Origin: Deltaproteobacteria bacterium
GTDB lineage: Bacteria > Desulfobacterota > Binatia > UBA12015
DNA: 48,046 nt
Direction: 5' to 3'
Assembly: GCA_016874795.1 (NCBI GenBank)
Contig: VGTG01000025.1
Span: 1-48,046 of the forward strand
Part shown: positions 2,233 through 22,255 of the stretch, in pieces
Numbering within the stretch: the first letter of the stretch is position 1
Layout of the letters: the number at the start of each line of letters is the position of its first letter
Program-made: the position numbers and the translations under genes
Notes under the pieces: model-generated
Databases searched by the model: none
What the model was told of the DNA's origin: nothing
Seen by the model: only the letters and a program-made list of their open reading frames with translations

Positions 2233-2241
2233 GACCGATCG

Positions 2242-2278
2242 AGCCTGGGTGCAGATGCGGCGCAACGAACCGGACCCC
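2242..2278 (-). repeat. Diverged half copy of the 37-nt dispersed repeat
   Basis: The 37 nt starting AGCCTGGGTGCAGATGC and ending AACGAACCGGACCCC match the right arm of the hairpin at 22115-22151 at all but two positions. Its complement matches the left arm and the tandem units at 22014-22103. It sits between a poly-Gly-coding end of the GT2 gene and a small gene whose likely ATG (2255) lies inside the repeat. Confidence 0.8.
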
Positions 2279-21945: not shown

Positions 21946-22011
21946 GCGCGACGCATCGCCGTGATCGCCGCGATGGTTCAGGAGCTGCAACCCATCGTGC
22001 GCACTCTCTAG
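21946..22011 (+). pseudogene. Possible nucleosidase/phosphorylase N-terminal remnant
   Basis: The plus strand reads RIAVIAAMVQELQPIVRTL, then TAG. It resembles the start of 5'-methylthioadenosine/adenosylhomocysteine nucleosidase-like proteins (IGIIAAMxEE). Only about 20 codons remain before the 45-bp tandem repeats begin. With so little sequence, chance similarity is possible. Confidence 0.3.
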
Positions 22012-22013
22012 GG

Positions 22014-22103
22014 GGACTCTCTAGGGGGTCCGGTTCGTTGCAGCGCATCTGCACCCAGGGACTCTCTAGGGGGTCCGGTTCGTTGCAGCGCATCTGCACC
22101 CAG
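22014..22103 (+). repeat. Two perfect 45-bp tandem repeat units
   Basis: The unit starts GGACTCTCTAGGGGGTCCGG and ends GCATCTGCACCCAG. Two copies begin at 22014 and 22059 without mismatches in between. An extra ACTCTCTAGGGGG precedes them at 22003. The second unit continues into a long inverted repeat (22069-22151). Related to the diverged copy at 2242-2278. Confidence 0.9.
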
Positions 22104-22151
22104 GCTGCGAAAGCAGCCTGGGTGCAGATGCAGCGTAACGAACCGGACCCC
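22069..22151. repeat. Long hairpin with GAAA loop, REP-like palindrome
   Basis: The inner stem has 19-bp perfect arms (22090-22108 and 22113-22131, left arm GCATCTGCACCCAGGCTGC) closed by GAAA. Then there is a 5x5 internal mismatch, and the outer arms GGTCCGGTTCGTT / AACGAACCGGACC pair again. If transcribed, either strand would form a very stable structure; the plus-strand loop GAAA is a GNRA tetraloop. Its palindromic form and dispersed occurrence fit a REP/BIME-like element. It is in the gap between two divergent genes' 5' and 3' ends. Confidence 0.85.
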
Positions 22152-22255
22152 TTTCCGTCTGCGAGCGCCGACGGAGGCGCACGTTCGCTGTGCAAGCGCT
22201 CGCAACTTGCGCACGAGCCCGAGCCCGACGCGCAGCGGAGGCGATCGTGGGACGG

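Follow-up and report, generated by a model that had tools for sequence, protein, structure and literature searches.

A dispersed palindromic hairpin in a Binatia genome, very probably a mobile repeat of the REPIN/TIR type that shares its ends with a resident RAYT-like transposase

The described repeats that come closest to the one reported here belong to RAYT-type transposases. According to passages of Di Nocera et al. (2013, PMC3733652), the terminal inverted repeats (TIRs) of the TIRYT group carry the motif GGGGWSAS in most, although not all, cases, and a dispersed family of TIR repeats has been reported for some of them. The same passages describe GTAG REPs that often give their flanking ORFs a stop codon, the TAG of GTAG. 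TIRYT-type systems are little studied, and the literature passages used here report no activity for them. The present case extends the RAYT/TIR-repeat partnership to another lineage. It is a clean one, in which a hairpin population can be considered side by side with a RAYT that has its own framing arms and with the parallel families around related RAYTs of two other genomes.

The window, which is the whole stretch of 48,046 nucleotides that was analysed, contains a hairpin that is nearly perfect and follows partial tandem duplicates (Table 1). Its two arms of 39 nt (22070-22108 and 22113-22151) are inverted and 90% complementary, and the fold is stable far beyond chance when compared with shuffled sequences (z -15.1 as RNA and -14.3 as DNA). 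In the minimum free energy fold, a shift of register mostly absorbs the 5x5 mismatch and leaves one bulge on each strand. An earlier sequence-only reading had described two perfect 45-bp units and an inverted copy that forms a GAAA-capped hairpin around a 5x5 mismatched core, and these were recovered together with a 13-bp tandem pair that precedes the units. The inner stem has the 19 bp given there, whereas the outer stem is longer by two base pairs than the 13 bp first counted.

Table 1. Positions of the element and its associated repeats in the window
Feature	Position	Strand	Remarks
Complete element	22070-22151		82 nt; 22068-22153 with terminal AG/NT; outer stem 15 bp, 5-nt core, inner stem 19 bp, GAAA loop
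Left outer arm GGGGTCCGGTTCGTT	22070-22084	+	most conserved block of the family
Right outer arm	22137-22151	-	left outer arm inverted
Variable 5-nt core, left, GCAGC	22085-22089		faces 22132-22136, AGCGT
Variable 5-nt core, right, AGCGT	22132-22136		
Inner arm GCATCTGCACCCAGGCTGC	22090-22108	+	partner 22113-22131
Loop GAAA	22109-22112		loop sequence differs among copies
Truncated left-arm copy	22025-22059	+	belongs to the tandem duplication of 45 bp (22013-22057 / 22058-22102)
13-bp tandem duplication, ACTCTCTAGGGGG twice	22003-22028	+	flank ending in a G-run
Half copy (a single arm that breaks off at the loop)	2241-2278	-	in frame with a conserved small + strand ORF, at its 5' end

The genome to which the window belongs (G000; 6.27 Mb in 360 contigs) was searched by BLAST, which placed the element at dozens of sites. 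A covariance model for which 19 copies were used returned 115 matches, counted by strand, at about 58 places, and the window element was matched at 22066-22153 with 92.9 bits. Two places at contig ends, C310:9-90 and C202:26-107, are nearly identical in element and flank; they are probably an assembly duplicate and were counted once. This left 57 loci for examination, 55 of them with both ends and two with one end. The sequence-only reading had implied a second locus, which is the half copy, and had proposed a genome-wide search with covariance modelling, naming confinement to two loci, with no transcript or covariation, as the outcome that would count against it; the family instead numbers about 57 copies.

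The family consensus can be written as A-N-GGGGTCCGGTTCGWT-N5-GCATCTGCACCCAGGCTC-variable loop-inverse-N-T. Of the 15 positions of the outer block, 12 show no change in any of the 108 ends counted and two others are the same in 107 of them, whereas positions 16-22 are variable and the inner stem is conserved well, if not perfectly. The view that the core alone varies between copies was therefore nearly right: the core does vary beside an almost invariant outer block, but across the 55 copies the variation extends to the two positions after it and to the loop. One locus (L157) consists only of the outer arms with few bases between them (44 nt including the terminal bases), and another (L154) has its inner stem duplicated. 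The parts that can be lost or altered in these two copies suggest that the outer block is the part that matters in the element. The two sides of the core pair at 189 of 265 positions, against 151 +/- 6 after shuffling, and 16 of 53 cores are fully complementary where 3.7 would be expected by chance. Such an excess of pairing implies that the hairpin form has been kept or that one arm has been copied from the other, and it fits what is expected of REPIN-like hairpins (PMC3116915).

The inverted conserved ends, variable middle, hairpin fold and many intergenic copies are those of a REPIN. However, the halves are not REP palindromes with a GTAG-type foot: the ends have the layout A-N-GGGG with no GTAG foot, and single arms, folded in search of a classical REP hairpin, did no better than shuffled sequences (z 0.3 to 0.6). 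We therefore file the element as REPIN-like and not as a classical REPIN. Outside the ends, the second position is T in 95 of 110 cases (86%) and the dinucleotide CT occurs in 64 (58%).

The excess of complementary pairing in the core could also point to a cis-regulator or to a structured RNA, the latter considered in the sequence-only reading, in which a GNRA loop is combined with an internal loop that changes. The GAAA loop is real in the window copy but particular to it, as a GNRA loop occurs in one of 55 copies; a search of the window against Rfam gave no match, the copies, being palindromes, read alike on either strand, and the element occurs in none of the relatives searched. With an unconserved loop, a structured RNA becomes unlikely, and on all of this evidence we consider it very improbable.

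A RAYT-like Y1 HUH gene is present in the same genome as a single copy on contig C66 (15141-15860; locus L056, match at C66:15174), where it is framed by the arms of the element. The ORF encodes 239 amino acids from the start MGRKPRIAPAGMVFHVLNRANER; the left arm lies about 120 nt upstream, the inverted right arm overlaps the end of the ORF, and the two align over 41 nt in inverted orientation. The encoded protein matches Pfam Y1_Tnp (55 bits, E 9e-15) and NCBIfam REP_Tyr_transpos (71 bits, under the cut-off of 80), and on these matches we classify it by sequence as RAYT-like. Its sole PDB match is E. coli TnpAREP (4ER8, E 1e-4), with which the HUH motif and the catalytic tyrosine align, and it carries a C-terminal extension beyond the core in which Pfam detects no HTH. 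Thirteen Y1_Tnp (PF01797) matches were found in the genome, and of the ten loci retrieved, L056, the best match, is the only one that carries the arms of the element. The 12 others lie on C162, C9, C118, C65, C136, C49, C207, C21 and C123 (L057-L065), with three more, and the proteins read are of a different type (..GRGGPRTGAGRP...CPAHVTLRLRRGLPSLR..). Nine of these loci (L057-L065) were considered as an arm-framed source and set aside, as they lack these arms, although one of the 12 other proteins may act on the elements in trans. The search for a RAYT gene that the sequence-only reading had proposed thus yielded one with both a left and a right arm. Its suggestion of a REP/BIME with its own mobilising enzyme holds with regard to the copy number and the arm-framed gene, but not with regard to a classical GTAG REP: the single arm does not fold, the GTAG foot is missing and the flanks of the enzyme gene are terminal inverted repeats.

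Because the same arms frame the RAYT, the best reading of the hairpins is that the two terminal inverted repeats of the RAYT transposon have been joined head to head in them. Thus, the hairpin is very probably a non-autonomous mobile palindrome of the REPIN or TIR-dimer type, whose ends are the terminal inverted repeats of the single-copy TIRYT-type RAYT at C66:15141-15860. Palindromic form and terminal inverted repeats are also MITE-like, and the family could in principle descend from a conventional DDE or other insertion sequence, with the RAYT locus reflecting a chance insertion beside or inside a copy. We regard such an origin as improbable, as the RAYT has half an element on either side, the left arm before the gene and the right arm after it, in the manner of transposon ends, related RAYTs elsewhere share this layout with other sequences, and no consistent target duplication was noted at the junctions inspected. 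Integron attC sites should also be mentioned, as they form hairpins with an outer box, an unpaired spacer, an inner box and a variable terminal structure, an architecture that the element resembles. By inspection, however, the arms lack GTTRRRY/RYYYAAC core sites, the copies are single and scattered rather than arranged in cassette arrays, and the arms frame a RAYT; an attC-like recombination site is accordingly the least probable of the alternatives, and by a wide measure an improbable one.

RAYTs with 45-55% identity to the L056 protein occur in Planctomycetota, Nitrospira, Acidobacteria and other groups. Many of them have their own inverted repeats on both sides, often of the AAAAGGGGACA or GGGGTCA type (GGGGW type), and the repeats carry GGGGACA or GGGGTCA. 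At two of these loci, L087 in a MAG labelled Proteobacteria and L093 in a MAG labelled Acidobacteria, the sequence of the upstream flank of the RAYT is dispersed through the genome. Most of the dispersed copies viewed are hairpins or inverted pairs, and their sequence is unlike that of the G000 family. Flank repeats of a RAYT that are dispersed as hairpins are the pattern published for TIRtrons and TIRYTs in the passages cited (PMC3733652, PMC6006769).

The element was found neither in 38 relatives, three of them congeners, apart from one 26-nt match in G005, nor in a sample of 394 other genomes of the phylum. Likewise, the 13 other genomes of the family contain no close homolog of the RAYT. 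Element and RAYT are therefore both peculiar to G000 among the genomes searched. At the site orthologous to the window copy, G001-G003 gave matches to the right-hand gene only, with no synteny.

It is most likely that the single resident RAYT copied the palindromes around the genome. In such a process, the palindrome would fold when single-stranded and the RAYT would recognise the nearly invariant outer block GGGGTCCGGTTCGWT. Cleavage would then occur near the terminal CT dinucleotide, just outside CCCC, and the excised strand would be joined elsewhere, as is done by enzymes of the IS200/IS605 type. The inner stem would be retained as hairpin architecture, while the 5-nt core and the loop would be under weak constraint. 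Cutting by the L056 RAYT at the terminal CT of the element is suggested by analogy, as TnpAREP enzymes studied in vitro cleave at CT (PMC8266576).

Tandem duplications of a flank together with the G-run of the element lie beside 16 of 109 element ends, compared with 2.4% of control windows (about six times). They have periods of 9-18 bp and were seen at L009, L011, L014, L016, L019, L030, L034, L035, L036, L037, L046, L048 and L153, as well as in the window at 22003-22028. Because these duplications are one-sided relative to the element, they do not represent target duplications; they probably arose by slippage at a G-run next to a hairpin that blocks replication. The 13- and 45-bp repeats of the window are duplications of this same kind. 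The small ORF that contains the half copy starts with MRRNEPDPIQDLILDLLEWLG..., while its orthologs start with MSNPVDALVLDLLEW or MTDTVEALILDLLEW. Judging from these differing starts, the half-element seems to replace the native start and appears to supply the ATG of the ORF.

The oddest feature of the family is its placement at stop codons. Neighbouring genes were called with a crude gene finder based on codon usage. Of the 54 element ends that point towards the 3' end of a gene, 26 lie within 1 nt of its stop codon, against none of the 38 that point towards a start. For 33 loci at which both neighbours were called and at least one faces with its stop, 18 abut a stop where 6.7 would be expected under uniform insertion in the same gap. 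Truncation of genes by the insertion was considered as a cause. Four genes that abut an element have an ortholog in the G001 DNA that was retrieved (the two neighbours of L002, the right neighbour of L041 and the left neighbour of L042). Their proteins are essentially full length, so that truncation was ruled out for these four and the insertion sits at a pre-existing stop. When about 1.1 Mb of G001 was searched for empty sites, two syntenic pairs were obtained. L041 is informative: in the congener the two convergent genes are separated by 3 nt and the element is missing, although the empty site is not a clean one, as the filled site holds some 45 extra nt besides. L002 was not informative, as 2.3 kb of other DNA separates the flanks. 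In the genome of L093, the hairpins of a different RAYT family (L228-L235) seemingly end at possible stop codons as well, for example GTGTAGAAACGACC...GGTCGTTTCTACTCG in L231.

A position right after a stop codon or between convergent genes, common to many copies, together with a very stable fold would also suit a bidirectional transcription terminator or a 3' mRNA-stabilising hairpin that has spread and been kept for this function. Yet TTTT within 10 nt, as a U-tract, follows only one of 110 ends, which makes an intrinsic terminator unlikely. Furthermore, sequence is conserved and not structure alone, the arms of the element also frame a transposase gene, and all relatives searched are without the family even though they too need terminators. 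We therefore hold the terminator or stabiliser to be as improbable as a MITE, while a secondary effect of the element on mRNA ends is possible. Under the reading as a mobile palindrome, the placement leads to one specific hypothesis on target choice that is worth following: the family might insert its palindromes preferentially at stops, where the terminal A(G) would rebuild or preserve the stop codon, so that insertion would be silent and harm would be avoided in gene-dense genomes. We put this forward tentatively and consider it rather unlikely, although a related habit is already known from the GTAG REPs that supply TAG stops.

When compared with known systems, the G000 family agrees with the TIRYT/TIRtron elements, as far as the cited passages describe them (PMC3733652), in several respects. 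The transposase is a Y1 (HUH) enzyme related to RAYTs, its gene is framed by long terminal inverted repeats and not by REPs, the repeats have a GGGGWS-type motif, and the TIR sequence also forms a dispersed repeat family, with TIRs present as dimers. The motif GGGGTCCG matches the consensus GGGGWSAS of those passages at seven of eight positions, with one departure. By comparison with what is described there, the G000 family differs in that nearly all copies are full palindromic dimers, the arm consists of two blocks with a variable core, and the lineage is another one. The L056 RAYT is probably a candidate for RAYT subclass 2.1 as given in passages of PMC6006769 (group 1 of Bertels), a subclass marked by its phylogenetic position and by an HTH-like domain at the C-terminus. 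With the REPINs of Pseudomonas fluorescens (Bertels and Rainey 2011, PMC3116915), the family shares the inverted pair with conserved ends, variable middle and hairpin fold, the compensatory changes, a cognate RAYT gene whose flanks carry the sequence of the repeat, and halves and tandem clusters as by-products. Unlike those REPINs, it has neither a GTAG foot nor a stable REP hairpin in the single arm, and its arms of about 38 nt hold the variable core between a conserved end block and a conserved inner block. GTAG REPs and the BIMEs of E. coli with TnpAREP are similar in their sites downstream of genes and between convergent genes and in the CT beside their ends, and the ends of GTAG REPs can supply a stop codon according to the passages already cited (PMC3733652). 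However, foot and stem differ, and the G000 enzyme shows no more than a distant similarity to the TnpAREP of E. coli (E 1e-4). By analogy, the G000 system would work like the REPIN-RAYT systems (PMC3116915), and it adds a new member to a known class, the REPIN/TIR repeats of RAYT-type transposases.
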